Positions 28,211-43,394 of a stretch of 44,528 nucleotides of DNA are shown one piece after another (positions within the stretch are counted from its first letter, which is position 1; every line of letters begins with the position of its first letter). Source of the stretch: a virus; the IMG/VR virus record IMGVR_UViG_3300017706_000505, positions 1-44,528 of that record; one strand, written 5' to 3'. A program made the translations under genes and the position numbers. The notes under the pieces were generated by a model. It had not been told where the DNA came from, did no database searches, and worked only from the letters and a program-made list of their open reading frames with translations.

Positions 28211-28558
28211 ATGGACGAAAGACTCGAAAAGGCATTAGACTTTAGTAACTATGCTTTAACGATTAACAATCAAAAGAGAAACATTAGAAACAGAGTTGCA
28301 CAACTACAAATTGTACATCATGCAGGTGGGGTGTTTATTGCTAATCACGAAACAATTGCTTTTGTAAAAACATTAATAGATTTAAAACATAAAAGTTCTA
28401 TTGTTATTGATAGCAAAAATAATCCTATTACAGTAAAAAGTTTAAAAGAATTATTAGAAAAATTAGTAGATGCATATACAAGTGCTACTACTGAATTTGA
28501 TATTGAAAACGAAAAGCTAAAGAAGGCAAGAAACATTAAGAAAATAATGGACTGGTAA
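28211..28558 (+). CDS. Unknown 115-aa helical protein at the head of the cargo cluster
   Basis: A 115-aa protein predicted to be mostly helical. The C-terminal half (about 65-112) is rich in Lys, Glu and Leu with heptad-like spacing (LKELLEKLVDAYTSATTEFD), so a coiled coil is plausible. No family is recognised. It has a strong AAAGGAG ribosome-binding site and a promoter just upstream, and its TAA stop overlaps the next ATG (TAATG). It may be a small regulator, scaffold or chaperone for the following glycosyltransferases, but this is only positional inference. Confidence 0.6.
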   Translation: MDERLEKALDFSNYALTINNQKRNIRNRVAQLQIVHHAGGVFIANHETIAFVKTLIDLKHKSSIVIDSKNNPITVKSLKELLEKLVDAYTSATTEFDIENEKLKKARNIKKIMDW

Positions 28559-29460
28559 TGAGTGAAATTCTCGAACAAAGAGGTGTTTGCTTCTTTGCCT
28601 ACAACAATAATCAACTAGACTACGTTAAGATGGCAATCACTGCCGCTAAGTATGTTAAGAAAAATTTAAAACTTCCAGTGTGTTTAATCACTGATGAAGG
28701 TAGTGAGTCTTGGCTAGAAGAAAGTCAACCATCTGCACTTATTAAAGAAGTATTTGATTATATTGTTATTACCAATGATGAAATGAAAAAGAATCCTAGG
28801 CGACACTATGATAGCCCGTGGTCAGAGTTTGCTGCACAATTCAATAACAGTAACAAACATAAAATATATCAATACAGTCCATTTGAACAAACATTATTAT
28901 TAGATATTGATTACATAGTAAAAACTGATGTCTTACTAAAATATTTTAATAATGAAAAACCAGTGTGTATGTTTGATAGAGCAACAACACTTAGAAATGA
29001 ATTGCCTGCCCTACAAGAACGTTTTTTATATGACGCAGGAATTAAAATGTGGTGGAGTACAGTTGTGTATTTTGATCGCAGTGACTTTAGTAAAATGTTT
29101 TTTGATACATGGGCCCATGTAGCAGAGAACTATGAGTTTTATCAATACTTGTATAACTTTCCAAGTAAACTATTCCGTACAGACTATTGTGTAAGTATTG
29201 CAGTACATATATTAGCAGGCATGCAAGATACTCAATTATTATTAGGAAATTTTGACAACACAAAATTAGTAAACATGAGTCAGAAAGATGATATCATAGA
29301 AGTAAAAGACGATAACGAATGGATAATGCTTTCACATAGTCAGGAAGAAGAATGGAAGAATATTTTAGTTAACACAAGTAATCAAGATGTACACGTTATG
29401 AATAAGAGAGCACTCGACAGGGTGTTAGTAGACATAATGGAGGCGTTTAATGCAGATTAA
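28558..29460 (+). CDS. GT-A fold glycosyltransferase-like protein (GT8-like)
   Basis: A 300-aa protein with a GT-A nucleotide-sugar fold pattern. Residues 8-47 have a beta strand and helix with RGVCFFAYNN and VKKNLKLPVCLITD. The DxD metal-binding motif (Asp116, Asp118) sits in TLLLDIDYIV. Further acidic and aromatic residues follow, including WWSTVVYFDRSDFSKMFF (near 155), as in GT8 and related families. It would transfer a sugar from a nucleotide donor; donor and acceptor are unknown. It starts on the last base of the preceding stop. The next gene overlaps by 11 nt and is a diverged relative. Surface glycan modification is the likely theme. Confidence 0.65.
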   Translation: MSEILEQRGVCFFAYNNNQLDYVKMAITAAKYVKKNLKLPVCLITDEGSESWLEESQPSALIKEVFDYIVITNDEMKKNPRRHYDSPWSEFAAQFNNSNKHKIYQYSPFEQTLLLDIDYIVKTDVLLKYFNNEKPVCMFDRATTLRNELPALQERFLYDAGIKMWWSTVVYFDRSDFSKMFFDTWAHVAENYEFYQYLYNFPSKLFRTDYCVSIAVHILAGMQDTQLLLGNFDNTKLVNMSQKDDIIEVKDDNEWIMLSHSQEEEWKNILVNTSNQDVHVMNKRALDRVLVDIMEAFNAD

Positions 29461-30298
29461 AGAAAACAGAGGCTATGTAATATTAGCGTTGGAAGATTTT
29501 GAATACAAGCAAGCAACTGCACTTGCATATAGTATTAAGATACATAATAAAGATGCTAGTGTAACATTAGTAACTAATTATATTGATCGTGTACCAGAAC
29601 ATTTTAAAGAAGTATTTGATCATTTAATAGATTTACCTTATGGGTATAACCCTGGTACTAGAACAAACGACTGGCAACTATATTGGTGTACACCATACAC
29701 ACATAACATTGTTATTGATTGTGCAAGTCTTGTAAAAGAAAATCACGATAGCATATGGGAATACTTGGAAGACCAATGTGATATTTACTTAATTAACGAA
29801 TGCAATAATTTTAGATCAATGCCTGTATTAAATAAAACATTTAAAATATTAGAAGAATATAAATTTAATCCAGTATACTCTCATATGTTTTATTTCAAAC
29901 ACGACACTGATACATCGCTTGCATTTTTTAAATTAGCAGATGTGTTTATGCAAAACTGGAGAGGAGTGTTTAGTCATTACTTTTCTAAAGCACATGTTCC
30001 ATCTGCGTATGATAATGATATGATGTACAGTTTACTAAACACAATTATATTATACGAGCATCCTACTTTGAATAATATTATAGATACAACTAACATGCCA
30101 GTAACATTAACATCAGGTGAAATTGGCAAATGGAATAAATGGACAGATAGATTAAACATCTGGAATAGTGAAAATGCAAAAGTAAAAATTCAAAATTATG
30201 CAGTTGCTACTAATTTATATTATAGAGAACAAGAGTTTTTAACAGAAGATATTTTTAATGGACACAGAGACACTTACAAAGCCACATCAAAACGTTGA
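29450..30298 (+). CDS. Diverged GT-A glycosyltransferase-like protein lacking DxD
   Basis: A 282-aa protein similar in layout to the preceding one: RGYVILALEDFEYKQATALA (7-26), a beta strand ASVTLVTNY (36-44), and THNIVIDCASLVKEN (84-98) at the place of the DxD strand. Here the sequence is D-C-A, so the usual metal-binding pair is not intact. The second half keeps the PVYSHMFYFKHDTDTSLAFF segment. It may be a non-catalytic partner of the previous glycosyltransferase, or a metal-independent enzyme. It overlaps its predecessor by 11 nt and its successor by about 40 nt, so the three should be co-translated. Confidence 0.5.
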   Translation: MQIKENRGYVILALEDFEYKQATALAYSIKIHNKDASVTLVTNYIDRVPEHFKEVFDHLIDLPYGYNPGTRTNDWQLYWCTPYTHNIVIDCASLVKENHDSIWEYLEDQCDIYLINECNNFRSMPVLNKTFKILEEYKFNPVYSHMFYFKHDTDTSLAFFKLADVFMQNWRGVFSHYFSKAHVPSAYDNDMMYSLLNTIILYEHPTLNNIIDTTNMPVTLTSGEIGKWNKWTDRLNIWNSENAKVKIQNYAVATNLYYREQEFLTEDIFNGHRDTYKATSKR

Positions 30299-31235
30299 TA
30301 GAACTTATTATATAGTCTTTGACAAAAAAGGCAGAATATATAATATTAACAGCACTCCATTGGCAGAGCTAAAAAGTGGCTTGACTCAAATTCAAAGTAA
30401 TAATAAAATATGTAAAAAGATTATAAAAGGTCAAGCAAATCTAAAAAAATATGGAATTGTATGGGACCTTGTTAGTCAACAATGGAATATAAGTAAGCGT
30501 AGCACTAAGTTAATATTGGAATCAGAAGATAACAAACTGTTACCATACTTAACTAATACTAATAGAAAAAGCACAGAAATATTTATTAGTATATACTATA
30601 ATGATAACACCGCAGTAGTATATGCTAACACAACTAAAATTAAAAGTATTAAAAACCTAAGCGATATAACAGAAATATCAACAGAAGAAACGCAACTACT
30701 AGACGTATACATTACAAAAAAGAATGACCCAGATTATCTAGTTACTATACTTAAATTAGATCCATTACAACTTTTTACAACTGGAACACAAGTAATAGAT
30801 CTTGATACAGAACTTAATAGACATATTGATTGGGAAAATATAAGTATGTATGGCAAACCTGTATTTAAGAATTATGGATGGAATTTATTAAAAACACAAT
30901 ATTTTGCTCCATCAAGTTCAAATAATACAGTTGTACAAACGTCAACTAGTGATATTTTAACTAGCATAAATATTAACGTAGTAGATAACAAGTTAACAGT
31001 AGATAGTAATTTATCTGAAGAACAGGATTATTATTTTGAGGGATATAGCAAAATACGAATTGTTGTATGTGATAAGAGCCCAGATAACTTAGTAGGTGCA
31101 ATCGAAGTTCCAGTAAAAGAGTTATTAAAAGAAAAAACATATAATACTACAATAAATTTTAAATGGCCAAAGCAGCCATTGTTGTTATATAAAAGTAATT
31201 ATATAACAATCTCAACAGGAGAAGATAAATGTTAG
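30258..31235 (+). CDS. Unknown 325-aa cargo protein
   Basis: A 325-aa protein of no recognised family. The N-terminus (VDRTYYIVFDKKGRIYNINS, about 13-32) has beta strands. A middle part contains KKNDPDYLVTILKLDPLQLF (near 150-170), and the C-terminal part is again beta-rich and ends IEVPVKELLKEKTYNTTIN. The composition (high Asn, Thr, Ser, Ile) resembles virion or adhesin proteins more than enzymes. The chosen ATG overlaps the previous gene by 41 nt, unusually long for this region, so a later start is possible, although no other Met lies near the N-terminus. It overlaps the nitroreductase-like gene by 7 nt. It could be a structural partner or a glycan-binding protein. Confidence 0.5.
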   Translation: MDTETLTKPHQNVDRTYYIVFDKKGRIYNINSTPLAELKSGLTQIQSNNKICKKIIKGQANLKKYGIVWDLVSQQWNISKRSTKLILESEDNKLLPYLTNTNRKSTEIFISIYYNDNTAVVYANTTKIKSIKNLSDITEISTEETQLLDVYITKKNDPDYLVTILKLDPLQLFTTGTQVIDLDTELNRHIDWENISMYGKPVFKNYGWNLLKTQYFAPSSSNNTVVQTSTSDILTSININVVDNKLTVDSNLSEEQDYYFEGYSKIRIVVCDKSPDNLVGAIEVPVKELLKEKTYNTTINFKWPKQPLLLYKSNYITISTGEDKC

Positions 31236-31984
31236 ATAAAAGTATATGGGAAAATAGGCATACGGCTAGATTGTTTTCAACAGAAAATACAAACATACCG
31301 TTAGACGATTTGAAATATTTACAAACTGTAATAAACAATATACCTAGTCAGTGTAGTATTAAAACTCATTTTTGGGTATATCTAGGACAATCAAAAGAAG
31401 ATATAGAATTGCGTACTTGGTTAGCAGATAATGTATTTTGGGTAATGCAAGAAGAAGAAAAAGAAACAGAGTTCAAAGAACATATGTTGGGTATTATACA
31501 AGCACCAGCAATACTATTAAGTATAAGAACTAATAAGCCTTGGGCAAATATCACAGAGCCAGATAACTCAGATGAATATAACGAAGAGTTAGCAATTAGA
31601 AGTGAAGGCTTCCATGCTGGAGTACTATTGTCTACACTATTAAATATGAATTATAATGTTGCAACGTTTGGTTGCAATTCTGGGTATTATGATAAAGATT
31701 ATGATGAAAAGAGAGATCAGTTTCAAAAAATGATTAGAGAAAGATATGCTGAAGAACTACGTGACTTAGTTTCTAAGTACCCAGGTAAAAAAGGTAATTG
31801 GGATGATATTAAGTTTTATCCAGGATTATCTACTTGCTTTGGTCCAGAAGCAATAGATAAACAAGAAACAGGACAAATGGAAATATGGACTAGTCCTACA
31901 GGAAAGAAATACCATTTTGTTAATGGATCAAAACCAAGAACACCAGCAGAATCGTGTATTGGATTTAGGAGAAATTATGAGTAA
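31229..31984 (+). CDS. Nitroreductase-like flavoprotein (diverged)
   Basis: A 251-aa protein with a nitroreductase-family outline. The N-terminal FMN-binding Arg-rich start is IWENRHTARLF (6-16). A central strand is APAILLSIRTNKPW (92-105). The helix-plus-strand segment EGFHAGVLLSTLLNMNYNVA (126-145) is like the FMN-contacting AxxG helix of the family. Nitroreductase-fold enzymes catalyse FMN-dependent redox steps on quinones, nitro compounds, enones or flavin itself. Some act in natural-product oxidation. Identification is at fold level; sequence drift is strong and a different redox or non-redox role is possible. It overlaps the preceding gene by 7 nt and the following one by 8 nt (ATGAGTAA). 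Confidence 0.5.
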   Translation: MLDKSIWENRHTARLFSTENTNIPLDDLKYLQTVINNIPSQCSIKTHFWVYLGQSKEDIELRTWLADNVFWVMQEEEKETEFKEHMLGIIQAPAILLSIRTNKPWANITEPDNSDEYNEELAIRSEGFHAGVLLSTLLNMNYNVATFGCNSGYYDKDYDEKRDQFQKMIRERYAEELRDLVSKYPGKKGNWDDIKFYPGLSTCFGPEAIDKQETGQMEIWTSPTGKKYHFVNGSKPRTPAESCIGFRRNYE

Positions 31985-32963
31985 TATGCAAAGCATTAAT
32001 GAGTATGATATAGTGTTTATCAGTTATGATGAACCAAACGCAGACGAGAACTACAACGACTTAATTAATAAGGCACCCTGGGCTAAACGTAGCCATGGAG
32101 TATTTGGAAGTGATGCGGCACATAAGGCTGCTGCAGACTTAGCCGAAACAGATAGGTTTATTACTATTGATGCAGACAACATAGTTAGAGATGATTTCTT
32201 TGGCGTTGAAGTAGATATGAGTAGAGTTAGAAGCACAGAAGTTATTAGTTGGGCAGGCAAGAACACAGTAAATGGTTTAGTATATGGCAATGGTGGAATC
32301 AAGTGTTGGCCAAAAGAAGTAGTGTATGGAATGCAAACACATGAGAATGCACCCGCAGGAGATAAGCGAGCTCAAGTAGACTTCTGTTGGAATATTAATT
32401 ACGTACAAATGAATAATATATATTGTGATGTAATGAACAATGCTAGTCCACTACAAGCCTGGCGTGCAGGTTTCCGTGAAGGTGTTAAGATGGGATTAGT
32501 TGACGGCGATGTTATTGATCCTACACAACTGAAACAAAAAGTACACGACAAGAATTATAAAAGATTACTTACATGGATGAGCGTAGGTGATGATGTAGAA
32601 AATGGACTGTGGGCAATATACGGTGCAAGGCTTGGATGTCATATGACAAACATTACTAGAACTGATTGGGATTGGAAAAACGTTAGAGACTTTGATTGGC
32701 TTACAAAATATTATAAAGAAAATGTATTACCTAACTTTGAAGCCAACAGTGATCAATTATGTCCTCGCACTGGAATGAAATGGAATTATAGTACATTACA
32801 AGAAGAAAGCGATAGACTTGGATTTGAAATACGCAAAGAACTAGATTTAGAAATTGCTGACTTAGGCAAAGAAGGTTCACGATTCTTTAAAGAAGTGTAT
32901 ATTAACCCAAGCCGTATGGGCGCCCAAATTAGAGAAGACCAAGTAGAGGATACATTAGAGTAA
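31977..32963 (+). CDS. Glycosyltransferase-like protein
   Basis: A 328-aa protein taken from the ATG at 31977. This start is chosen because a TTTAGGAG ribosome-binding sequence lies just upstream and the overlap with the previous stop is short (8 nt). It has a GT-A-like beginning, YDIVFISYDEPNADENY (10-26), a conserved GVFGSDAAHKAAADLAETDR helix (41-60) and ITIDADNIV (62-70) with the DxD (Asp65, Asp67). The rest contains Trp/Asp-rich segments, including TDWDWKNVRDFDWLTKYY. A sugar-transfer role is likely; donor and acceptor are unknown. Third glycosyltransferase-like protein in a row. Confidence 0.6.
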   Translation: MSNMQSINEYDIVFISYDEPNADENYNDLINKAPWAKRSHGVFGSDAAHKAAADLAETDRFITIDADNIVRDDFFGVEVDMSRVRSTEVISWAGKNTVNGLVYGNGGIKCWPKEVVYGMQTHENAPAGDKRAQVDFCWNINYVQMNNIYCDVMNNASPLQAWRAGFREGVKMGLVDGDVIDPTQLKQKVHDKNYKRLLTWMSVGDDVENGLWAIYGARLGCHMTNITRTDWDWKNVRDFDWLTKYYKENVLPNFEANSDQLCPRTGMKWNYSTLQEESDRLGFEIRKELDLEIADLGKEGSRFFKEVYINPSRMGAQIREDQVEDTLE

Positions 32964-33272
32964 ATGAATATTGGTGTAGACATAGTTTCAATTAATAGAA
33001 TTAGAAAAATCTATAACAAGTATGGAACACGATTCACCGATCAATTTTTAACAGAACAAGAAAAACAAAAAGAACTTACTGCAGAATATATATCAAAATG
33101 TTGGGCAGTAAAAGAAGCATCAATTAAAGCAAGCGGCATAACAGATGCTAAACAATTTTCATATGGAAAGAACGGTAAGCAACCTATTGTGATTACTGAC
33201 GTAAAAGGTACATGGAACCTTAGTGTGTCAGATGAAAAAGACTATACAGTTGCTATGGTAATAAATGACTAA
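32964..33272 (+). CDS. acpS: Compact holo-[acyl carrier protein] synthase (AcpS type)
   Basis: A 102-aa phosphopantetheinyl transferase of the AcpS group. The two catalytic motifs are present: GVDIVSI (4-10, with Asp6) and WAVKEASIKASG (47-58, with Glu51). RFTDQFLTEQE (23-33) supplies the usual substrate-side helix, and a GKQP turn (71-74) precedes the last strands. The enzyme moves the 4'-phosphopantetheine arm from CoA to the serine of an ACP. E. coli AcpS is 126 aa, so this is a trimmed version. The LSxSH motif near the C-terminus is LSVSDEK. An ACP gene with an intact DSL motif lies at 40005, so enzyme and substrate may be a matched pair. The gene starts directly after the upstream stop and overlaps the next by 8 nt. 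Confidence 0.85.
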   Translation: MNIGVDIVSINRIRKIYNKYGTRFTDQFLTEQEKQKELTAEYISKCWAVKEASIKASGITDAKQFSYGKNGKQPIVITDVKGTWNLSVSDEKDYTVAMVIND

Positions 33273-34848
33273 AAAGAAACTAGATAATTTTGAATGGGAA
33301 GTTAACCCTGTTACAAAAAATACAGACCCAACAGATGCAAATAAAAATGCAATGACCAATATGCTTAACAGCACTGGTCCAGGATTTTGTTTAGCAAAGT
33401 GGACACAAGTAACTATGCATCTTGGATCTGGATTAACACATAGTTGTCATCACCCTACTGCACATAAAATTCCATTAGACGAACTTAAAAAGAATCCAAG
33501 TGCATTGCACAATACAAAATTTAAAAAAGAACAACGTAAAGATATGCTTAACGGCATACGTCCTAAAGAATGCGATTACTGTTGGCGAGTAGAAGACAAC
33601 GGTGAAACAAGTGATCGTGTACTTAAAAGTTTAGACTCATTTAGTTTTAAGCACCATGACAAAATAGCAGAACTAGTAGGAGACGAAGATATATTTCCTA
33701 CATATGTAGAAGTAAGTTTTGGACGCACATGCAATTTTAAATGTGCATACTGTGGTCCTGGCTTTAGTAGTCAGTGGGAACAGGAAATTAAAAAACATGG
33801 TGCATACTCGTTAGAGCAAATGGAATTTAATTTAGCAAAAGACTCTGAGAAGCATATACCATTACGTGAACACAATCCATACATTGAAGCATTTTGGGAA
33901 TGGTTCCCTGAAGCATATAAGCATATGAATACGTTTCGTATTACCGGCGGAGAGCCTTTGCTTATTAAAGATACAATGAAAGTTATTGACTTCCTATTAG
34001 ACAATCCAAATCCAAAACTATCATTTGCTATTAACAGTAACGGATGTCCACCAGGAGACTTGTGGGAAGAATTCACTGCAAAAATAAAACAATTAGAAGA
34101 AAGTAAATGTATCAAAGACTTTATATTATTTACTAGTGCAGAAGCAAGTGGAGATAGAAACGACTACGTAAGATATGGAATGGACTATAAACTATGGCAA
34201 GATAATATTGAATACTTTTTAAAGAATACACATGGAGCAGGTGTAACAATTATGAGTGCATTTAATATATTAAGTATTACATCTATTAAAGAAATGCTCG
34301 AATGGGTACTGGTACTAAAACAAGATTACAATTACACAGGTTGGGATAAATGGCTTATTGAAAAAGGATTTACTCGTCCTGCTATAAACGAAGATGCTAG
34401 GCCAATGAACGAAAGACAAAATGAAAAATATAATAAACGTAATCGTGTAATAGTAGATATTCCATATGTAAGGCATCCAGAGTTTTTAGATGCTAGTAAC
34501 ATTACTCCTGATTTAATAGACAAGTATCTTGTACCAGCAATAGACTTTATGTATGAAAATGTAACACACGGCGATTGGTTTGGTAACTTAGGGTTTGATG
34601 CATGGGAGGCAGGCAAGATGCGTAGAATTGTTTTAGATGTTATTAATAAGTCCACACAACACTTTCCAAATAGTTACTTAACAAAAAGTAATGAAGTAAG
34701 AAAAAATAGAACAAGGTTCTACAACTTTGTTGATGAATATGATAGAAGAAGAGATACAAACTTCTTAAAAACATTTCCAGAGTATATAGACTTTTACAAT
34801 TTATGTAAGGAAGAAGAGAAGATATATTATGAAAACACTACACGCTGA
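33265..34848 (+). CDS. Radical SAM protein with N-terminal twitch-type cysteines
   Basis: A 527-aa radical SAM enzyme. The CxxxCxxC that binds the SAM-linked [4Fe-4S] cluster is Cys156-Cys160-Cys163 in TCNFKCAYC. The GGEP motif follows near 228. N-terminal cysteines Cys42, Cys61, Cys103 and Cys106 (the last pair as ECDYC) resemble the auxiliary cluster region of twitch-domain radical SAM proteins. The C-terminal 200 residues are helical with no known domain. Radical SAM enzymes use 5'-deoxyadenosyl radicals for C-H chemistry such as methylation, thioether formation or epimerisation. The substrate is unknown; an ACP-bound, peptide or sugar substrate is plausible from the neighbours. It overlaps AcpS by 8 nt and the next gene by 20 nt. 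Confidence 0.85.
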   Translation: MTKKKLDNFEWEVNPVTKNTDPTDANKNAMTNMLNSTGPGFCLAKWTQVTMHLGSGLTHSCHHPTAHKIPLDELKKNPSALHNTKFKKEQRKDMLNGIRPKECDYCWRVEDNGETSDRVLKSLDSFSFKHHDKIAELVGDEDIFPTYVEVSFGRTCNFKCAYCGPGFSSQWEQEIKKHGAYSLEQMEFNLAKDSEKHIPLREHNPYIEAFWEWFPEAYKHMNTFRITGGEPLLIKDTMKVIDFLLDNPNPKLSFAINSNGCPPGDLWEEFTAKIKQLEESKCIKDFILFTSAEASGDRNDYVRYGMDYKLWQDNIEYFLKNTHGAGVTIMSAFNILSITSIKEMLEWVLVLKQDYNYTGWDKWLIEKGFTRPAINEDARPMNERQNEKYNKRNRVIVDIPYVRHPEFLDASNITPDLIDKYLVPAIDFMYENVTHGDWFGNLGFDAWEAGKMRRIVLDVINKSTQHFPNSYLTKSNEVRKNRTRFYNFVDEYDRRRDTNFLKTFPEYIDFYNLCKEEEKIYYENTTR

Positions 34849-35512
34849 TTTAGGATTACTTAACTTATTATTTTTGCAAGGAGCAGGAGGAAGCTTCCTA
34901 GCAAGTATGATATCTAGAGCAGTAACAGATCCATGGTGGACAGATTACACACCAGAGCCACCAAACAAGTTATTTAAAACAACAAACGAATTTATGAATC
35001 AGTACAATCATATTGTAATGACTCATCACCCATTAGACTTCAGTAAGCAAGATACTAGGTTTAATGTAACTAATACAAAATGGCTTAACTTAACACTTCT
35101 TCCTGAAGAACGTCATTTTACTAATGTAATGACTATGGTAAAGCTACAAGACTACACAGGAATAACAAGACAATACATAAGAGATATGTTGTACGCAACT
35201 AAGGATAGACATTATGAGAGAGCTCACGATTGGCAAGTAACAGTAGCAGATAAACTAAGAAAACAAAACAGCATGTTAGAAGTTAGGTGGAAGCATATAT
35301 TTGAAGATGGCAATCACGATGTAATACTATCAATACTAAATCATATGTTTGCAGGACAGTATAAAGCGGATGGCATAGTAGAAAACATAGCAGTCAAGTG
35401 TATGGCTAAACACGAAGCCGATAAGCATTTATACAATGAGATAAAAGATAATACAGAAGAAACACTAGATAAGATTTTTAAAATAATCGACGAAGAATCC
35501 ACTTCGTCTTAA
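34829..35512 (+). CDS. Sulfotransferase- or P-loop-like protein
   Basis: A 227-aa protein starting with a strand-loop-helix (LLFLQGAGGSFLASMISR, residues 13-30) like the phosphosulfate-binding P-loop of sulfotransferases, though without the classic GxxGxGKS/T kinase loop. A His-rich VMTHHPLDF segment follows (about 63-71). The C-terminus is Glu-rich. It might transfer sulfate from PAPS, or bind a different nucleotide. It overlaps the radical SAM gene by 20 nt and converges with the leftward gene at 35465 (3' overlap of 48 nt). It is the last gene of the first rightward arm. Identity is tentative. Confidence 0.4.
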   Translation: MKTLHADLGLLNLLFLQGAGGSFLASMISRAVTDPWWTDYTPEPPNKLFKTTNEFMNQYNHIVMTHHPLDFSKQDTRFNVTNTKWLNLTLLPEERHFTNVMTMVKLQDYTGITRQYIRDMLYATKDRHYERAHDWQVTVADKLRKQNSMLEVRWKHIFEDGNHDVILSILNHMFAGQYKADGIVENIAVKCMAKHEADKHLYNEIKDNTEETLDKIFKIIDEESTSS

Positions 35513-36436
35513 TTCTAAAGTTATATAATGATTACTATAAGTGTGTGGTGTTGTTTCTATTTCAATTTTTGTAATGTTTGTTACACTATCGTCAACTAAA
35601 TCTATATAAGGCTTAAAGCCAACATCGTCTACATGATGTACATACGTAAAGTCTGTGTCTGGCATTGTATTTGCTATACTATTTAATGTACATAAACTCT
35701 TTGGTATATTATTACAGAAAGAAATATTTCTCAGAGATAATTCAAATCCTATAAAAAAATATTCTTCTATATTATGTTTTTTATTATTTGTATAAAGTGG
35801 AATACATGTACTTGTTCCGCTTTGTATTAAAACGTTACTAGCATTTAATTCCTTAGCAAGCAAACAACTACTGTGACCGTTTTTACAATCAGATACTATA
35901 TTGTAATCAGTATTTGGTATAAGATTTTTAATATAGTTTGCTAATTTCTCTATACTATCAATGTTATCGTTTATCCCTTTGTATAAGCAACTATCAAACA
36001 ATACTGGATTACGTTGACTTCTTTTTACATCTTCAACAATGCTTATAATATTATAATCAGTGAACTCGTCAAACATCCAACTATACTGATGTTCTATTGC
36101 ATTTCTGGAAAGAGCAAGTAACCAACTACCGCCACTTATTGCTATGATAGTTTTTTCTTTGCCTCTATCAATATAAGCAACAGAGTTATTTTGATCTAAT
36201 GTTGCATTGTTTAATGATTCTTGTAAGTATAAGCTGTTTATATTTTTTATACTGCTAAAGTTATCTAAGCACATTTGTCGTTGTTCGTTTGTTACATAAG
36301 TCGACGACATGTACTTTATATGATATTGTTGTGCTAGGTTTGAAAACTCTATACTTTCTTTATTGTTAGCAAAGTTCCAATCCTTATTAACTATATGATC
36401 AGTTACATCACATATGTTATTTGATTCAAACCTCAT
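35465..36436 (-). CDS. Alpha/beta-hydrolase-like protein, unknown
   Basis: A 323-aa protein when started at the ATG at 36436 (TAATG overlap with the previous stop, AGAGG ribosome-binding sequence). The ATG at 36454 is also possible but has no such site. It has an alpha/beta strand pattern: KTIIAISGGSW (95-105), YNIISIVEDVKR (128-139), and YNIVSDCKNGHSSCLLAKEL (178-197). The GHSSC there resembles a nucleophile elbow (GxSxG-like, with the last Gly changed to Cys). A later FIGFELS and YVHHVDD could supply acid and His residues. An esterase or thioesterase is possible, which would make sense next to an ACP, but this is weakly supported. It is the last of three leftward genes within the cargo. Confidence 0.4.
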   Translation of the reverse strand: MRFESNNICDVTDHIVNKDWNFANNKESIEFSNLAQQYHIKYMSSTYVTNEQRQMCLDNFSSIKNINSLYLQESLNNATLDQNNSVAYIDRGKEKTIIAISGGSWLLALSRNAIEHQYSWMFDEFTDYNIISIVEDVKRSQRNPVLFDSCLYKGINDNIDSIEKLANYIKNLIPNTDYNIVSDCKNGHSSCLLAKELNASNVLIQSGTSTCIPLYTNNKKHNIEEYFFIGFELSLRNISFCNNIPKSLCTLNSIANTMPDTDFTYVHHVDDVGFKPYIDLVDDSVTNITKIEIETTPHTYSNHYITLELRRSGFFVDYFKNLI

Positions 36437-37479
36437 TAGTCGCCTCTTTCCCATTTAACTACCATAACATCATTGTAAAAATCTTCAAGCTCGTTATCTG
36501 ATAGTTCTGCTATGTTTGGAATTTTTCCTTTTTCCCAATATGATTCTCTAATAACCATCGGTGCGATCATTTGATAATATTTGTTGTGTTTTATATTTTC
36601 TAATGGAAATGCAACTGATCCATCTTTTGCTAATATAGGAAACATACTATGAGGTATATTCATTTTCTTTGTAATAGAACCCAGCATTTCATGTGTATCA
36701 ATGTGTGGGTACCCCGAACGGAATTGTCTAGGACTATAGTTACTTTGATACATACTAGGTATATGTTCAAGGGCATCATATGCCCAAACGTCTAATGCGT
36801 TTCCTATTCCTATTGCCCATAAGTCCTGACCGTTTGGATATCCAAATGTTCCATTGTATTTTCTAATAAACTCAATTGGTTGAAAAAATAATAAATTTTT
36901 ATCGCCGGTTGCTAGTGTGCTTCTATGTGATACATCTAGTCCTTGTAGTCTATGAAATATATTATTGAATGCAACACTGGGCCAAATAATTGTATCGTAT
37001 CGTTGCATAATAACCATGTCGTAAGTTATGTTGTGTTTGGCTTCGTGCTTTTGCTTTAACATAATCGAGTCTACCCAAGCTGCCAATACTTTAGAATGCA
37101 TAATAGATCCTTCAATATCTTTTAGTTGATTCTCTTTTTTAAGTGAATATATTTTAAATTGTTTTGGATTATAATGTTTTTTTATTTGGTTAGTTTGATG
37201 ATTTATCATATCTTTATTAAGAATATCTTGTTCCATTAGATCTTTATTATTCTCTTTGTTGTACTTGTGTCTTGTATACGTAGTTTCGTAAGGTTTCAAA
37301 CTGCAGAAATAATCTACATTAACGCCCGGAATGTCATAGAATCTTTTTATATATTCTAAACAAGCGTCTCCAGTTCTATATTGCCCATACATACATATAG
37401 CAATATTTTTAATGTCTATTCGACTATGATTTTGATTAGTGTTACTCCATGCTTTCATTCTTGTTTTACCCGTGTTCAT
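36436..37479 (-). CDS. Glycosyltransferase-like protein
   Basis: A 347-aa protein if started at 37479. An upstream in-frame extension to 37560 lies in the reading frame of the neighbour and is less likely. Pattern: NIAICMYGQYRTGDACLEYI (25-44), a mostly alpha/beta N-terminus, and YDMVIMQRYDTIIW (153-166), where the R-Y-D may replace the DxD. The C-terminal part has IDTHEMLGSITKKMNIPHSM and a CYQMIAP-like segment. Proteins of this outline occur in marine phage and bacterial glycan loci. A sugar transferase role is plausible, substrate unknown. It overlaps the 191-aa gene by 14 nt and precedes the hydrolase-like gene with a 1-nt overlap. Confidence 0.5.
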   Translation of the reverse strand: MNTGKTRMKAWSNTNQNHSRIDIKNIAICMYGQYRTGDACLEYIKRFYDIPGVNVDYFCSLKPYETTYTRHKYNKENNKDLMEQDILNKDMINHQTNQIKKHYNPKQFKIYSLKKENQLKDIEGSIMHSKVLAAWVDSIMLKQKHEAKHNITYDMVIMQRYDTIIWPSVAFNNIFHRLQGLDVSHRSTLATGDKNLLFFQPIEFIRKYNGTFGYPNGQDLWAIGIGNALDVWAYDALEHIPSMYQSNYSPRQFRSGYPHIDTHEMLGSITKKMNIPHSMFPILAKDGSVAFPLENIKHNKYYQMIAPMVIRESYWEKGKIPNIAELSDNELEDFYNDVMVVKWERGD

Positions 37480-38041
37480 CTGTAATAATTTTTTCCTCTG
37501 GCCAATTAAGTGCAGTGTATTGTAAATTTCTTTGCCACATAGTTCTTTGCATAATAGCAAAACATTTATCTTTGTCTAAAATATCTGGTTGATTTTTATG
37601 ACTATCTATCCATTTCCATAAACTAACTAATTTCATAAAACTACTGTAACTAGTAACAAACTCAGTAGGTATAGGACCTGGGTTATGTGATTCAGGAGTA
37701 TGCCATTGGGTACTGCCTGCTAATGCCCACTCGTTAAATACAACTGTATTTGGTGGAAGTGTTTTAAACTTTTCTAGTAATCTTTTAAAGTTAAAATTAC
37801 CTTTACTTGCACACACAATAGCATTGTTCATTGCTAGTTCATGATCTCCAAACTTAGTAAACATATCTACTCCATTTTTCCAGTGAGCTTTAAATTTACT
37901 ATATAAAAAATATTCATAGTGACCCCATGCATCCATGTCTGTTTCTTTTGCTTTAAATATTGGCCACGTGGGATCTATAGATGGTGTTTCTTTATCTTCA
38001 GTGCATAAACTTACTAAAATCAATGCCTTTGCTCCTATCAT
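37466..38041 (-). CDS. Unknown 191-aa protein, first gene of the leftward cargo arm
   Basis: A 191-aa protein starting MIGAKALILVSL, with a hydrophobic N-terminal strand (4-12) that may be the first strand of an alpha/beta fold. Aromatic-rich segments follow (MDAWGHYEYFLYSKFKAHW, near 36-54), then NTVVFNEWALAGSTQWHTPE (near 98-117) and FMKLVSLWKWIDSHK. No family is recognised. The ATG lies only about 7 nt downstream of the predicted start from a leftward late-type promoter (GATAAATA, 38054-38061), so the leader would be very short. The gene overlaps the next leftward gene by 14 nt. Confidence 0.5.
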   Translation of the reverse strand: MIGAKALILVSLCTEDKETPSIDPTWPIFKAKETDMDAWGHYEYFLYSKFKAHWKNGVDMFTKFGDHELAMNNAIVCASKGNFNFKRLLEKFKTLPPNTVVFNEWALAGSTQWHTPESHNPGPIPTEFVTSYSSFMKLVSLWKWIDSHKNQPDILDKDKCFAIMQRTMWQRNLQYTALNWPEEKIITDEHG

Positions 38042-38053
38042 TAAGTATGTATA

Positions 38054-38068
38054 TATTTATCATAAATA
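38054..38068. promoter_or_regulatory. Bidirectional late-type promoter, 15-bp palindrome
   Basis: The sequence is TATTTAT-c-ATAAATA, arms of 7 bp. On the plus strand it reads CATAAATA (38061-38068) with a start expected near 38074, the first base of the aminotransferase ATG. On the minus strand it reads GATAAATA (38061-38054) with a start near 38048, 7 nt before the ATG of the 191-aa gene. Thus two late-type promoters share one site and drive two divergent arms of the cargo. Prediction by motif only. Confidence 0.6.
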
Positions 38069-38073
38069 CTATT

Positions 38074-38883
38074 ATGATTACTAAGATGATAGATACTTTT
38101 ATCTTACCCGAAGTACAAGAAGAACTAAACAGTATACAACCAACACTTAACGGAAGACAACCATATAATACAAATATAGTAGAATGGTTATCACCTGTAA
38201 TAGACTTGTCTGACTTCTTTGTTTATCCAGTCAATGGAGTAACTGAAGCAATTAACTGGTGGCAGAATAAAGAGAAACGTAATATACAAAAAGTAATTGG
38301 CGACTACGAGTGGGTAGACACTGGAATACACAGCTTGTACAAAGATAACTATCTTGCACATTCTACACCTGAGTGGGGGCCAGTTCATTACGTATCGTGT
38401 CCTAGTTCAATTGATGGGAACTATACAGATATTCCAACTGATGTTCCTGTAGTGCTTGACATAGCGTATGTGGGAAGTGCTCCTATTAAAAAAATACCTA
38501 TGACACCTAATATAGAAAAAGTATTTTTTAGTTTAAGTAAAAGTTTTGGCATAGGTAATATACGTACAGGTTGGTATTTTACTAAAAGACCCGATGTTAA
38601 ATTACATGCATTACACAACGAAGCAATGTATTATAACTATTGTGCAACTCAGTACGCAGAACATTTAATAAATACATACAGTATTAATTATGTACATAGT
38701 AAACTAAAAGATATACAAACAAAAGTATGTAGCAATTATAATATTACTCCAAGCGATTGTATATGGCTTGCTACATCAACCGATGACAAGTATATTGATT
38801 ATCAGAGAAGCAATAACATTGCAAGACTTTGTATTACAAAATTATTAAAGGAAAAACATGACAAACAAACAAAAAAACATTAG
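38074..38883 (+). CDS. Minimal fold-type-I PLP aminotransferase-like protein
   Basis: A 269-aa protein from the ATG at 38074; the ATG at 38086 is an alternative. The aminotransferase class I core is visible. YPVNGVTEAINWW (51-63) corresponds to the GxxEA turn that holds PLP phosphate. VVLDIAYVGSAPI (126-138) carries Asp129 and Tyr132, which contact the PLP ring. SLSKSFGIGNIRTGW (153-167) contains the Schiff-base lysine Lys156. Typical enzymes have about 380-400 aa, so this one lacks part of the N- and C-terminal small domain. It would transfer an amino group to a keto acid, sugar or ACP-linked ketone; substrate unknown. The transcription start and ATG nearly coincide. It overlaps the next radical SAM gene by 26 nt. 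Confidence 0.7.
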   Translation: MITKMIDTFILPEVQEELNSIQPTLNGRQPYNTNIVEWLSPVIDLSDFFVYPVNGVTEAINWWQNKEKRNIQKVIGDYEWVDTGIHSLYKDNYLAHSTPEWGPVHYVSCPSSIDGNYTDIPTDVPVVLDIAYVGSAPIKKIPMTPNIEKVFFSLSKSFGIGNIRTGWYFTKRPDVKLHALHNEAMYYNYCATQYAEHLINTYSINYVHSKLKDIQTKVCSNYNITPSDCIWLATSTDDKYIDYQRSNNIARLCITKLLKEKHDKQTKKH

Positions 38884-39994
38884 TGCTTTAGATAGAGTAG
38901 ATGCTAAGTCATATGAAGAAATGAACTTGCCTATGACTGGTGATCCTACTAAGGATAATATTACTATCTTAGATGATAAGCCACCGTTGTTTCATAGCAT
39001 TCCCGAATATGATATTGAAAACAATCCTTTTAGCTTTTTGTACGTTGACATGACATACGATTGTAATATGGAATGTGAATTTTGTTATAACCCAGTTAGA
39101 ACATATAGTACACTGGACATTGAATGGTTTGAAGATGTGTGTGCTAAGTTACCACACCCAGTTAACTTTAGACTGTTAGGTGGAGAGCCAACACTATACA
39201 GAGACTTGGGTAGAGCCTTAGATGCATGTACAAAATACGGACACCAGGCAGCAGTAGTTACAAATGGTTTGCGTTTAGCAAGCATGAACTACGCAAAAAA
39301 ATTAAAAGTAATACTTGATAGAAACCCAACAGTGAATGTGTCATTGTCAATGAACGGCGGACTACATCACGATGATTGGTATATTGAAATTGATGGCGAG
39401 AGCAGACGAGAGAAAAAAGTTAAGGCACTAGAAAATATGATGGAGTTAGGATACAGACGTGTTTGTATTAATGCTATCATTGTTAAAGGCCTCAATGAAG
39501 GATTAGTAAAAGAATTTTATGATAAGGCATTACAACACCCAGGACAGATAACAAACATACGTTTCCGAACTGCGGCTAAACAAGGTCGTTGGGACGAAGA
39601 GATATTTGATGAAGGTGAACAAACAAGTTATACGGGTTTACAATTAGATGAGTATATTAAAAGTGTTATACCAGAAGCACGTAACCCTATTAAAACAATA
39701 CGTGATGGTTATCATCCTAGTACAGGTTCAGGTGTAAGACTTAATAACCCAGATTTAAAATGTAATCAATGTTGTTTTATGTATTACATACGACCACAAC
39801 TATGGGTTGCAACTGTTGAATTTGGATCACATAACAGTGCGTTATGTTGGAGACGTGGACAACTAGTACAAGGTAATCAAGTTATACAACCGTTCCATCA
39901 TTATATGGACGAGCTTAGTAGGTATATACAAACGTATAAACCAAGCGGAATCAAAGAGACTGCTAAAACAAAAAGTATACCAATACAAGAATAA
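38858..39994 (+). CDS. Radical SAM protein with C-terminal cysteine cluster
   Basis: A 378-aa radical SAM enzyme. The CxxxCxxC is Cys69-Cys73-Cys76 in CNMECEFC, followed by GGEP at 108-111. The core continues with VTNGLRL and SLSMNGG strands. The C-terminal part has extra cysteines: Cys302, Cys305, Cys306 (KCNQCC) and Cys330 (LCWRRG), which may bind a second Fe-S cluster as in SPASM or twitch proteins. The N-terminus, unlike the other two radical SAM proteins of the cluster, has no Cys-rich domain. Start at 38858 with AAGGAAAA upstream, overlapping the aminotransferase by 26 nt. It is followed by the ACP gene after 10 nt, suggesting a carrier-bound substrate. Confidence 0.85.
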   Translation: MTNKQKNISALDRVDAKSYEEMNLPMTGDPTKDNITILDDKPPLFHSIPEYDIENNPFSFLYVDMTYDCNMECEFCYNPVRTYSTLDIEWFEDVCAKLPHPVNFRLLGGEPTLYRDLGRALDACTKYGHQAAVVTNGLRLASMNYAKKLKVILDRNPTVNVSLSMNGGLHHDDWYIEIDGESRREKKVKALENMMELGYRRVCINAIIVKGLNEGLVKEFYDKALQHPGQITNIRFRTAAKQGRWDEEIFDEGEQTSYTGLQLDEYIKSVIPEARNPIKTIRDGYHPSTGSGVRLNNPDLKCNQCCFMYYIRPQLWVATVEFGSHNSALCWRRGQLVQGNQVIQPFHHYMDELSRYIQTYKPSGIKETAKTKSIPIQE

Positions 39995-40004
39995 GGAAAA
40001 TAAA

Positions 40005-40250
40005 ATGAATAAAGAAGAAGTAAGAGAAAAAATGTATTCATTGTTAACAGTGGGATTGTTTTTAGATGACGGTTCTAAGTTTGATATGGATACTACATTT
40101 GGTGAAGACTTGGGTTTGGATAGTTTAGATAAAGTAGAAATCAAACTAACAATCGAAGATGGCATGGGAATAATTTTACCAGAAGATAGTTTTGCGGGCG
40201 ATGTTATTACTGTAGAAGATGCAGTTAACTTAGTCATGGAACATGTATAA
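40005..40250 (+). CDS. acpP: Acyl carrier protein
   Basis: An 81-aa ACP-type four-helix protein. The phosphopantetheine attachment site is Ser40 in DLGLDSLDKVEI (35-46), the conserved DSL motif. The acidic composition and the VEIKLTIEDG helix II are typical. It carries acyl or other thioester groups on its 4'-phosphopantetheine arm once activated by AcpS, encoded 7 kb upstream. The gene has its own AAGGAAAA ribosome-binding sequence 10 nt after the radical SAM gene and overlaps the HAD gene by 8 nt. No fatty acid synthase or polyketide synthase genes are nearby, so the attached group and partner enzymes are uncertain. Confidence 0.9.
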   Translation: MNKEEVREKMYSLLTVGLFLDDGSKFDMDTTFGEDLGLDSLDKVEIKLTIEDGMGIILPEDSFAGDVITVEDAVNLVMEHV

Positions 40251-40839
40251 GTCTATAATATTTGACTTCGATGGTACACTAGCAGACTGTAAAGAGTTAC
40301 ATCAAACTGCATTTCGTAATGCAGTAGAAGAGCTTTGTCCTAGTGCAGAGTTTAACAATGAAGACATAGAGGGCAGACCAACACGTGAGAAGATACGTAT
40401 ACTACACACAATGGGTTACGACTTTAACGGAGATAAGTTAAACGATATTAAACAAGCATATACACAAGAACACTTACCAGAGTATATAAAGTACAACGAA
40501 GAATTACGTAATGAAATGCTAAGGCTACAAAAGAAATATAAATTATGTGTGGCAAGTAATGCCACAGAATTATTTGTACTCAGAAGTTTAAGTATTATGC
40601 AATTGTACAACGATTCAGGAGAACAAGTGTTTGAGAAAATTAATACTGCAACTGACTTTCCAGCTAAACCAGATACAACAACATTCTTTGATTGTATGAG
40701 ATGGACAGACAGCACACCAGACAATACTATTATATTTGAAGATAGTGTAGTTGGAATACAATGTGCATTAAGCACAGGTGCACAAGTTGTTAGAGTAATA
40801 GATGTGAATCACACTATAGAGGAAATGAAGAAACTATGA
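40243..40839 (+). CDS. HAD-superfamily phosphatase/phosphomutase-like protein
   Basis: A 198-aa HAD hydrolase of the beta-phosphoglucomutase/phosphoglycolate type. Motif I is DFDGT (8-12, Asp8 and Asp10). Motif II is around CVASNAT (near 104-110), and motif III/IV around FPAKPDTTTFF and IIFEDSVVGIQCA (acidic pair near Glu-Asp). The small cap domain lies between motif I and II. It would remove or move a phosphate on a small phosphorylated intermediate. It sits between ACP (8-nt overlap) and the nucleotidyltransferase (4-nt overlap, ATGA), so a sugar- or polyol-phosphate step that feeds the nucleotidyltransferase is plausible. Confidence 0.8.
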   Translation: MYKSIIFDFDGTLADCKELHQTAFRNAVEELCPSAEFNNEDIEGRPTREKIRILHTMGYDFNGDKLNDIKQAYTQEHLPEYIKYNEELRNEMLRLQKKYKLCVASNATELFVLRSLSIMQLYNDSGEQVFEKINTATDFPAKPDTTTFFDCMRWTDSTPDNTIIFEDSVVGIQCALSTGAQVVRVIDVNHTIEEMKKL

Positions 40840-41546
40840 AACTAATTATGCCAATGGCTGGACAAGGAAGTCGCTTTGACGAAGTGGGTTATGATTTACC
40901 CAAGCCAATGATACCTGTAAGAGATGTTCCTATGTTTGTACACGTAGAGCGTTGCATAGACTTAGAGTTTGATGAACGCATATTTATTGTACGCAAAGAA
41001 CATGATATACGATCAAGGGTCCTTGAATGGTATCCTGATGCACATGTGATTGAACTAGACTACTTAACAGAAGGTACTGCATGTACCATACTAACTGCAA
41101 GAGAGCATTATGAAGACGGTAGCAGTATCTTTATTAGTAACTGTGATCAACACATAGAATGGGATAGCGAGCATGCAGAAAGCATTATGAACAATCCCTA
41201 TAACAGTGGAATGATTCCAAACTTTTACTGCGACGATGGATCAAAGAAATGGAGTTACGCAATGGTAGACGATAGACAAAACATCAAACGTGTAGCTGAA
41301 AAAGATCCCATAAGCAATTGGGCAACTGTAGGTTACTATTGGTGGAGAGATGGTAATCAGTTTATACAAAGTGTAGATGCTATGATGAAAGCCAACGATA
41401 GAGTTAACAACGAGTTCTATACTTGTCCTACATTTAATTACACAATAGCACTAGAAGGAATTGGTAATATTAAACACATGGAAGTAGATGTTATGCAAGG
41501 ACTAGGAACTCCAGAAGACCTAGAACAGTACAAGGAATTATACTAA
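40836..41546 (+). CDS. Sugar-phosphate-type nucleotidyltransferase
   Basis: A 236-aa GT-A fold nucleotidyltransferase. Signature MPMAGQGSRFDEVGYDLPKP is at 5-24 (the GxGxRxxxxxxxxPKP nucleotide-binding loop, Lys23). LTEGTACTILTA (77-88) matches the base-binding segment, and SNCDQHIEWD (101-110, Asp104) the metal-binding motif. It would couple an NTP to a sugar, polyol or aminoalcohol phosphate and release pyrophosphate. Phage copies are known in glycan gene clusters. It follows the HAD gene by an ATGA overlap and its own TAATG stop/start junction begins the next radical SAM gene. Substrate specificity cannot be read from the sequence. Confidence 0.85.
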   Translation: MKLIMPMAGQGSRFDEVGYDLPKPMIPVRDVPMFVHVERCIDLEFDERIFIVRKEHDIRSRVLEWYPDAHVIELDYLTEGTACTILTAREHYEDGSSIFISNCDQHIEWDSEHAESIMNNPYNSGMIPNFYCDDGSKKWSYAMVDDRQNIKRVAEKDPISNWATVGYYWWRDGNQFIQSVDAMMKANDRVNNEFYTCPTFNYTIALEGIGNIKHMEVDVMQGLGTPEDLEQYKELY

Positions 41547-42682
41547 TGTCAGATAGTATCTGTGCGGCATTATGGTCACACGGACGAGTTGATGTAACTA
41601 TGAAAGTATATCCATGTTGTAGGTGGAGAGCAAACTTTACAGGCGAACGTGATACTTTACCACATATATCAGATGGCATAGAAGCTGCAATTAACAGTGA
41701 TTACTTTAATACTGTTAGAAAAAAGATGCAAGCCGGAGAAGTAATACCTCAATGTAAACAATGTACAAACGAAGAAGAAGTTGGTGTTACTAGTATGCGA
41801 AACAGAATGAATGAGTCATACGGCAAGTATATTAATACAACTCCAAAGATAAGAGATTTAGAACTAGCATTTAGTACGCATTGCAACTTGGCTTGTAGAA
41901 TGTGTAGTCCAGAAGCTAGTAGTAAGTGGAGTTTAATTGTTAATCCCAAAATGAAAGTAGATACAAGTGTTATCTCAAACGAACTAAGTAACTTTGATCA
42001 CGACTGGAGTGAACTAGATAATATAAAAATGGTAGGCGGTGAACCACTTCTTGCAAAGGATCATTACAAATATCTCGAATACTTTATTACACAAACAAAT
42101 CGTCCTGAAGAATTAACTCTTGTTTATCACACAAACGGAACTATATTTCCCAACAAAAACATTATAAACTATTGGAAAAAGATTAAAAAAGTTAGAATAA
42201 TATTAAGTGTTGATGCATATGGAAAACTAAACAACTATCTAAGACCAGGACAAAGCGATTGGGAAACAATTAATGCAAACCTTGATAAGTTTAAAAACAT
42301 ACCAGGTGTGAATACAGAGATAGGAACACATTCAGTTATATCAAGTATAGGTGCTTTGCAATTGGATAAACTTGTTGAATGGTTAAACAACACAGTTGAG
42401 TTTAATAATAGTTCGTTTGATATACTGCATCACCCACCTCACTTGTCAATCATGAACATAGTTGATCAAGAGAAACATAAGATTAGAGAACATATTAAAC
42501 TACTACAAGATAAGTTTGGTCATATAAATGGATTAGAGTCTAAGGTTATTTCAATAGTAGAACAAGCATTAAACGAAACTCCCAAACTACAATTCACAAT
42601 ACAAGATATTGCAGAACGAGAAAAACGATTAGATAAATATTTTAAACAGGACTTTTACAATGACACAATTCGTAGCACATAG
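41546..42682 (+). CDS. Radical SAM protein with N-terminal twitch-type cysteines
   Basis: A 378-aa radical SAM enzyme. The CxxxCxxC is Cys113-Cys117-Cys120 in HCNLACRMC, and GGEP is at 164-167. Cysteines before the core (Cys6, Cys24, Cys25 in YPCCRW, and Cys70, Cys73 in QCKQC) match the twitch-type auxiliary cluster pattern, as in the 527-aa protein at 33265, but here the protein is shorter at the C-terminus. The two are probably related paralogues. It begins on the last base of the nucleotidyltransferase stop (TAATG) and overlaps the GDPD-like gene by 23 nt. Confidence 0.85.
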   Translation: MSDSICAALWSHGRVDVTMKVYPCCRWRANFTGERDTLPHISDGIEAAINSDYFNTVRKKMQAGEVIPQCKQCTNEEEVGVTSMRNRMNESYGKYINTTPKIRDLELAFSTHCNLACRMCSPEASSKWSLIVNPKMKVDTSVISNELSNFDHDWSELDNIKMVGGEPLLAKDHYKYLEYFITQTNRPEELTLVYHTNGTIFPNKNIINYWKKIKKVRIILSVDAYGKLNNYLRPGQSDWETINANLDKFKNIPGVNTEIGTHSVISSIGALQLDKLVEWLNNTVEFNNSSFDILHHPPHLSIMNIVDQEKHKIREHIKLLQDKFGHINGLESKVISIVEQALNETPKLQFTIQDIAEREKRLDKYFKQDFYNDTIRST

Positions 42683-43139
42683 AGGAAACATAAACGGAGC
42701 TGAACCAACATTCGAGAACCGTATAGAATACCTATTGCATGCTTATGATGTATGTGGTGCAGTGGAAGTAGATATACAAACCCATAATGGGCAATTGTAT
42801 TTTGGACATGATGATCCACAACAACCGGTATCGCTTGAATTGATAATGCAAGACAATTGGTTTTGTCATGCAAAGGATCTACAGTCATTGGGTAAACTGT
42901 TAGACTTGGGTGCTCATACGTTTTGGCATCAACAGGATACAGTAACAATTACCAGCAGAGGATACATATGGTGTTACCCAGATGTATATCCCATTCACGA
43001 ACGTGCTATATGGTTAGACTTTGAAAACAAGTTTACTGACTTAGAACTAGTAGGTGGTTGGGGTTTATGCAGTGATAAGTATCCAATGATAAGACCTGTA
43101 CACAGTCCTAGACCTCCTGTTAGTCCGTATACTAATTAA
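42660..43139 (+). CDS. Glycerophosphodiester phosphodiesterase-like protein (short form)
   Basis: A 159-aa protein with the GDPD motif order: VAHRG (5-9, His7 and Arg8), PTFENRIE (16-23, Glu20), VEVDIQ (35-40, Glu36 and Asp38), and GHDDP (49-53, His50). These bind the catalytic metal and act as acid-base in glycerophosphodiesterases. Classical enzymes have about 250-350 aa, so this is a short form in which the C-terminal half of the barrel is reduced. It may hydrolyse a phosphodiester of the cluster's product or of host lipid head groups. It ends the second rightward arm, with a 23-nt overlap with the radical SAM gene. Confidence 0.7.
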   Translation: MTQFVAHRGNINGAEPTFENRIEYLLHAYDVCGAVEVDIQTHNGQLYFGHDDPQQPVSLELIMQDNWFCHAKDLQSLGKLLDLGAHTFWHQQDTVTITSRGYIWCYPDVYPIHERAIWLDFENKFTDLELVGGWGLCSDKYPMIRPVHSPRPPVSPYTN

Positions 43140-43233
43140 TTAGGTATATGTGTACCAATCCAATAACAATCAATGGGCTAGTTACTATAGCAAATAGCAA
43201 GAGCTCTTGAACTTCTCTTTTATAATACTTCAT
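43033..43233 (-). CDS. Small membrane ORF overlapping the GDPD-like gene (66 aa)
   Basis: A 66-aa ORF beginning MKYYKREVQELLLFAIVTSP. It has one clear membrane segment (about residues 11-32, LLLFAIVTSPLIVIGLVHIY) after a basic start. Its ATG overlaps the stop of the 54-aa gene as ATGA, which supports translation. The C-terminal 30 residues run antisense through the end of the GDPD-like gene and have no obvious character, so the real protein may be shorter or the 3' overlap a by-product. Function is unknown. Confidence 0.35.
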
Positions 43234-43394
43234 TTAAATGGTCTTCGCTTTTCAAACTTGTGTTGTTCATTCATACGCACCTCGTGTTTGTATACATAAC
43301 GCAACACGTATGCTCCTATGCCCAACGCAACTAGTGTGTATATAACTGGATAGTTGGCCCAAAGTTCGTCTCGGAACGCTATAATCCAACTCAT
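43230..43394 (-). CDS. Small membrane protein (54 aa)
   Basis: A 54-aa ORF starting MSWIIAFRDELWANYPVIYT. A membrane segment covers about residues 16-32 (PVIYTLVALGIGAYVLR), followed by a Lys/Arg/Glu-rich tail. Start and stop overlap neighbouring ORFs as ATGA on both sides. The pattern is a leftward chain of three tiny membrane proteins. No family is recognised. Confidence 0.5.
   Translation of the reverse strand: MSWIIAFRDELWANYPVIYTLVALGIGAYVLRYVYKHEVRMNEQHKFEKRRPFK

Follow-up and report, generated by a model that had tools for sequence, protein, structure and literature searches.

The stretch of DNA analysed in this study (the window) is the whole IMG/VR record IMGVR_UViG_3300017706_000505 of 44,528 bases, which was treated as a fragment. 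Downstream of its tail genes, at 28.2–43.1 kb, lies an island of cargo genes, most of which abut or overlap by a few bases, as the initial annotation had described. The island encodes a short phosphopantetheinyl transferase (AcpS, 32964–33272, plus strand), an acyl carrier protein (ACP, 40005–40250, plus strand), three radical S-adenosylmethionine (SAM) proteins (rSAM1, 33265–34848; rSAM2, 38858–39994; rSAM3, 41546–42682; all on the plus strand), a compact aminotransferase-like protein (AT, 38074–38883, plus strand) and the conserved protein g35465 (35465–36454, minus strand). AcpS, ACP, rSAM2, AT, rSAM1 and g35465 are complete, retain their motif residues and occur together in related phages. 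Because the same set recurs in this way, it probably represents a genuine biosynthetic route that has yet to be characterised, either for glycan decoration or for a small molecule.

The AcpS and the ACP with its DSL serine, both of which had been named from the sequence beforehand, were confirmed by profile searches. AcpS (102 amino acids) scored 42.2 bits against PF01648 (cut-off 25), passed TIGR00556 (47.8 bits, cut-off 45.35) and missed the curated cut-off of TIGR00516 (46.9 against 59.8 bits). A metal-binding Asp near the N-terminus and a KEAxxK motif are the hallmarks of AcpS enzymes. In the phage protein, D6, E51 and K55 were invariant across all seven phage copies (7/7), and the motifs GVDIV and VKEAxIK, also invariant in the seven phages, aligned with AcpS in the PDB (E=6.6e-11). 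The pairwise dN/dS of the gene was 0.06–0.17, and no match to it was found among 50,697 phage records. Judged by its sequence, the phage AcpS is a short, divergent AcpS. The ACP (81 amino acids) starts 10 bases after rSAM2 and scored 23.7 bits against PF00550 (cut-off 20.8). Its attachment serine lies in GLDSLD, which was invariant in 4/4 copies. The protein stayed below the equivalog cut-off of the canonical ACP model TIGR00517 (44.5 against 70.45 bits).

All three radical SAM proteins exceeded the cut-off of PF04055, which agrees with the initial annotation. rSAM1 and rSAM3 are twitch-domain proteins that matched NF033640 'N_Twi_rSAM' (cut-off 170) at 300.6 and 261.6 bits, respectively. For rSAM2, this model was not among the 25 best NCBIfam matches, and no NCBIfam equivalog cut-off was reached. 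rSAM1 was 68–70% identical in the relatives and 82% identical over a partial copy in L025, and it had no match among the 50,697 phage records. In rSAM2, the cysteines C69, C73 and C76 (CxxxCxxC) and a C-terminal CxxCC...C motif were invariant, and the latter suggests a further metal cluster. The nearest solved relative of rSAM2 by sequence was tetraether lipid synthase (E=1e-9). Since this match spans the core only, the reaction of rSAM2 cannot be named. The family was found at 12 viral loci. Two scans with short exact peptide patterns found no relatives in bacterial or archaeal genomes, although distant relatives could escape such scans. One further match, in Stenotrophomonas phage TS-12 (L095, MW302330), was set aside as uninformative for the radical SAM system: the matching gene is of the moaA type and is surrounded by molybdopterin genes (moaA-, moeA- and moaE-like, with a transporter), and the region has the look of a bacterial chromosome, possibly a contamination of the record.

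AT (about 270 amino acids) had no Pfam aminotransferase match. Its AlphaFold model (pLDDT 88.8, built from 19 sequences) matched class-I aminotransferases and C-S lyases of fold type I with a Z score of 18.5 over 254–259 residues, so the short aminotransferase proposed earlier was supported by structure. Compared with the structure-matched enzymes, the protein lacks about 100 residues. N55, G56, E59, D130, S156, K157 and R165 were invariant in 20 sequences, with the NG-T-E motif, D130 and S156-K157 conserved. On the strength of the model, AT is a compact, divergent branch of the fold-type-I pyridoxal phosphate (PLP) enzymes. A scan of viral contigs with the single sequence returned 0 loci and an alignment-based scan returned 33. 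At L048–L072, AT sat in a conserved pelagiphage-type block that also held fatty acid desaturase-like, TauD-like, methylase, acetyltransferase and FMN-reductase genes. The structure model of g35465, which carries a DCK motif, was too poor for use (pLDDT 41). Because the prediction failed, the earlier label 'hydrolase-like' is unproven and rests on appearance; the gene itself is conserved, and its product is a candidate for the release or transfer of a carrier-bound group.

A gene-neighbourhood search had been proposed beforehand, with recurrence of the set in several phages as the outcome that would support the idea. Eight loci were recovered when AcpS was scanned against 2.9 million viral contigs. 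Seven of the eight share the order of the window, namely tail protein, fibres, g28211, two glycosyltransferase-like genes, g30258, g31977 and AcpS. Five contigs run on with rSAM1, a sulfotransferase-like gene, g35465, g36436, g37466, AT, rSAM2 and ACP, again in the order of the window. The recurrence was thus borne out in five other contigs: synteny from AcpS to ACP was found in the window, G001–G003, G004 and G007, that is, in every contig reaching that far. G001–G003 are apparently three samples of a single phage, to which G004 is closely related; with the window, we therefore counted four phages. This recurrence of gene order in other phages exceeds chance. Between the window and G002, AcpS was 91% and rSAM2 87% identical (AcpS 90–91% and rSAM2 86–87% between the window and G001–G004), so that both were better conserved than the recombination proteins gp46/gp47 (78–84%). 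The baseplate protein gp6 was 51% and the long tail protein 33% identical, which shows that the relatives are not copies of one genome. Pairwise Nei–Gojobori counts, restricted to pairs without saturated synonymous changes, gave dN/dS of 0.05–0.23 for the core enzymes and the carrier; the values for g35465 reached 0.31. Behind ACP lies a HAD gene in the window and G007, and DUF6071 (SGNH-like) genes in G001 and G004. Neighbours were thus swapped while AcpS, rSAM2, AT and ACP were retained in all sampled relatives. The conserved core is AcpS, rSAM1, AT, rSAM2, ACP and g35465 together with the flanking glycosyltransferase-like proteins. This is narrower than the set of the initial annotation, which did not hold as one unit: the HAD–nucleotidyltransferase–GDPD genes, rSAM3 and the gene at 31229 fall outside it.

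Parts of the core were also found in more distant phages. The 50-kb contig G014 encodes a radical SAM protein of 305 amino acids that is homologous to rSAM2 (hhalign 99.8%), and an ACP (PF00550, 25.4 bits) starts nine bases after it. A cupin/hydroxylase-like protein and, after it, a homologue of g35465 (hhalign 99.6%) complete this four-gene run, and the contig also has a homologue of g31977 (31%). The 91-kb contig G008 has gene order in common with G014. It encodes a distant AT and an AcpS that matches the window's at 80% identity. G008 (L028, L087–L090; IMGVR_UViG_3300021085_002857) has 20 radical SAM domain matches, an S-adenosylmethionine synthetase (MetK) and SufE, and a MetK-like gene stands in the same gene order in G014.

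A second group of five phages (L045/L046, L047, L078/L079, L080 and L084) encodes rSAM2 at 59–63% identity, in the order rSAM2, small protein, thiolase, in some a methyltransferase, AT and AMP-forming ligase; in L046, Pfam matched the thiolase and AMP-binding families. The group had no PF00550 or PF01648 match, and ligase and thiolase were never found alongside ACP and AcpS in the records searched. One contig of the group, G017 (L047/L083; IMGVR_UViG_3300017914_002709), is a viral contig of 117 kb with 22 radical SAM domain matches. From the gene sets of G014 and G008 and the thiolase and ligase of the second group, we infer that rSAM2 and AT act on pantetheine-bound intermediates. In the simplest reading, the pair would act on pantetheine thioesters with a single type of chemistry, on coenzyme A (CoA) in the second group and on a dedicated ACP here.

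The set recurs in related phages and a distant phage pairs a radical SAM protein with an ACP; therefore, a carrier-based route is our best reading of the locus. We propose that the phage ACP would receive its phosphopantetheine arm from AcpS and would then be loaded with a small acyl or aminoacyl group, either by a host enzyme or by an unrecognised phage enzyme. The tethered group, or its precursor, may undergo radical chemistry by rSAM2 and a PLP-dependent transamination or elimination by AT. Release would occur via g35465 or a flanking transferase, and the flanking glycosyltransferase-like proteins may use the product, most likely on the glycan of the host surface or on the fibres of the virion itself. 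Phages that combine this rSAM2 and AT with a thiolase and an AMP-forming ligase would perform the equivalent chemistry on CoA. Judging from the gene content, we put the chances at about even that the conserved cassette does chemistry on a group held on the phosphopantetheine arm. We propose somewhat more tentatively a phage-only system, in which an ACP armed by the phage's AcpS would hold a substrate for the compact AT and for a radical SAM family confined to phages. In other phages, the system would have been rebuilt on CoA with a ligase and a thiolase; its product would be an unknown surface decoration or metabolite.

Several observations weigh against a carrier-based route. No loading enzyme was recognised, and the window has no AMP-binding domain. 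Seven genes separate AcpS from ACP. AT is common in pelagiphage-type islands without an ACP, so the enzyme is not tied to a carrier. The ACP of G014 is only weakly similar to that of the window (hhalign 21.9%), and an AcpS was found without an ACP in G008 and an ACP without an AcpS in G014, both of which are fragments. Furthermore, no acyltransferase, condensing enzyme or ketosynthase was recognised by Pfam among the cargo genes, which thus lack the marker domains of a PKS or NRPS assembly line. The absence of a fatty acid or polyketide synthase noted earlier was therefore upheld, and of the proposal that the phage encodes its own carrier-based assembly route, the recurrence of the set and the pairing of a radical SAM protein with an ACP in a distant phage stood, whereas the window has no AMP-forming ligase and no acyltransferase or condensing enzyme was recognised in the cargo.

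The genes may also share no pathway at all, if a hypervariable host-recognition island simply collects unrelated auxiliary genes and ACP and AcpS are unconnected to the radical SAM enzymes. Such islands exist. In published pelagimyophages, a variable cluster for host recognition lies between VrlC and gp14 and contains glycosyltransferases as well as radical SAM cassettes (PMC7029224). The HTVC008M group and Mosig EXVC030M (PMC7029224, PMC7892664) resemble the window in their variable tail-region island, and the aminotransferase of Mosig is 42% identical to AT. In Mosig (L002), the pelagiphage-type block containing AT adjoins the tail fibres. Unlike the pelagimyophages, the window groups with jumbo T4-like phages; the Mosig island has no annotated ACP or AcpS, and the published pelagimyophage description does not mention an ACP. 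The cargo island of the window comes after the tail genes; the sequence breaks off before the downstream flank of the island, and no VrlC was identified. The separate movement of the HAD–nucleotidyltransferase–GDPD genes, the exchange of the gene at 31229 and of the genes behind ACP, and the position of the G008 AcpS away from any ACP would also fit a mere collection. However, AcpS, rSAM2, AT and ACP stay in all sampled relatives as their neighbours change, and the combination of radical SAM protein, ACP and g35465 recurs in G014. We therefore considered this explanation unlikely.

ACP and AcpS might instead aid the iron–sulfur cluster supply of the phage radical SAM enzymes. In E. coli, ACP binds IscS, acylated ACP boosts IscS activity, and depletion of ACP disrupts Fe-S biogenesis (PMC13343975). 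Phage contigs with 20–22 radical SAM domains, and the MetK and SufE of G008, which apparently feed such enzymes, would agree with this role. However, the sequence available for the relatives of the window contains just two or three genes for radical SAM proteins, there are contigs that have 5–22 radical SAM domains but lack an ACP, and ACP stands directly behind one specific radical SAM family in two lineages, which makes the explanation improbable.

A boost of host fatty acid or phospholipid synthesis by ACP and AcpS likewise has little probability here: ACP has been proposed as an auxiliary gene of fatty acid metabolism in Alteromonas phage R22Y and in Rhodobacteraceae prophages, some of which also carry fabF and fabG (PMC11705849, PMC8224337), and is annotated in Prochlorococcus phage P-HM1, but the ACP of the window falls short of TIGR00517, no cargo gene matches a fatty acid synthesis enzyme in Pfam, and the gene is linked to rSAM2 and AT.

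Compared with these phages, which like the window carry an ACP gene, the window combines its ACP with an AcpS of its own and with a dedicated radical SAM/PLP pair. Our literature search, outside which most subscription papers lay, found no description of a phage AcpS or of an ACP/AcpS–radical SAM combination. Single auxiliary genes such as ACP, and glycosyltransferase islands, are already known in phages. Bacteria tailor groups on stand-alone carriers, for example on BtrI of the butirosin route, where a discrete ACP together with PLP and other enzymes is found near glycosyltransferases, an arrangement like that of the window. Unlike routes of the butirosin type, the window has no dedicated ligase, and its rSAM2 reaches no NCBIfam equivalog cut-off. 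If the carrier-based route is true, it would point to a complete viral pathway with unusual chemistry, comprising its own carrier, an arming enzyme and dedicated radical SAM and PLP enzymes. rSAM2 would then be a new radical SAM family with a defined partner, and it would become testable what marine phages do with their many radical SAM genes.

Behind ACP, the HAD phosphatase/phosphomutase-like protein (40243–40839) and the sugar-nucleotidyltransferase-like protein (40836–41546) had Pfam matches, and the short GDPD-like phosphodiesterase (42660–43139, 159 amino acids; all on the plus strand) had none, yet its catalytic HR-N / E-D / GHD-P residues were invariant among the relatives, in agreement with the earlier labels. 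The GDPD-like protein had no PDB match above noise. The same block occurs in several other phage contigs without ACP or AcpS. The cyanophages S-CAM9 and S-PRM1, like the window, cluster homologous HAD, nucleotidyltransferase and GDPD-like proteins among glycosyltransferases; unlike the window, they have another gene order and a fused nucleotidyltransferase, and they match the accessory module only, not the carrier core. Because the block is found without ACP or AcpS elsewhere and is reordered in cyanophages, we regard it as accessory and not as a part of the carrier system. In the window and at L008, L010, L011 and L015, phages that otherwise differ share the module at up to 91% identity. A radical SAM gene is inserted in some copies and absent from others, and the module looks like a recently exchanged cassette.

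The remaining cargo genes frame the core. g28211 (28211–28558), a small protein and the first cargo gene, was 69–95% identical in the relatives. Two proteins kept in synteny follow (28558–29460 and 29450–30298), called glycosyltransferase-like from their appearance; neither reached a Pfam cut-off. g30258 (30258–31235), with no assigned function, evolves fast (28–50% identity). The gene at 31229–31984 was found in the window only; it is lacking in every relative, where g30258 directly abuts g31977. Its label 'nitroreductase-like' was rejected as unsupported: Pfam, NCBIfam and the PDB gave no match, and the proteins annotated as nitroreductases in phage Mosig showed no significant similarity to it. 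g31977 (31977–32963) is GT-A-like, with an ITIDADNIV (DxD) motif, was 79–90% identical in the relatives and had no PDB match above noise. The open reading frame list starts this gene at a TTG at 31917, and the relatives begin at the ATG equivalent to 31977. All of these genes, and the P-loop/sulfotransferase-like gene (34829–35512), lie on the plus strand. The sulfotransferase label is weak; like the glycosyltransferase labels, it was given by appearance and has no Pfam match, and the genes themselves are conserved in synteny. On the minus strand lie g36436 (36436–37560), a conserved protein of phrog_13607 (function unknown) that is glycosyltransferase-like by appearance, and g37466 (37466–38041), which has no assigned function and is kept in synteny.

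The rest of the window encodes gp46/gp47-type recombination proteins, GIY-YIG and HNH endonucleases, the baseplate proteins gp53, gp5-like, gp25 and gp6, and fibre-like proteins. Its gp6 was closest to that of jumbo myophages of about 280–490 kb, and the capsid protein gp23 of the colinear relative G002 was 70% identical to that of Sinorhizobium phage Phosso (469 kb) and 69% identical to that of Vibrio phage 2.275.O (349 kb). These similarities make it very likely that the window comes from a T4-like marine myophage of the jumbo type. The G+C content was 33% in the cargo and in the structural genes alike, and no Rfam family and no tRNA were found in the window. The tail protein of 3,466 amino acids (14936–25336) has a marginal match to the carbohydrate-binding module CBM_5_12 at residues 2006–2030. 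The last 1.4 kb or so of the window (43140–44528) has no open reading frame of at least 75 amino acids and no Rfam match, and its G+C content is 39%, compared with the 33% of the cargo and structural genes.

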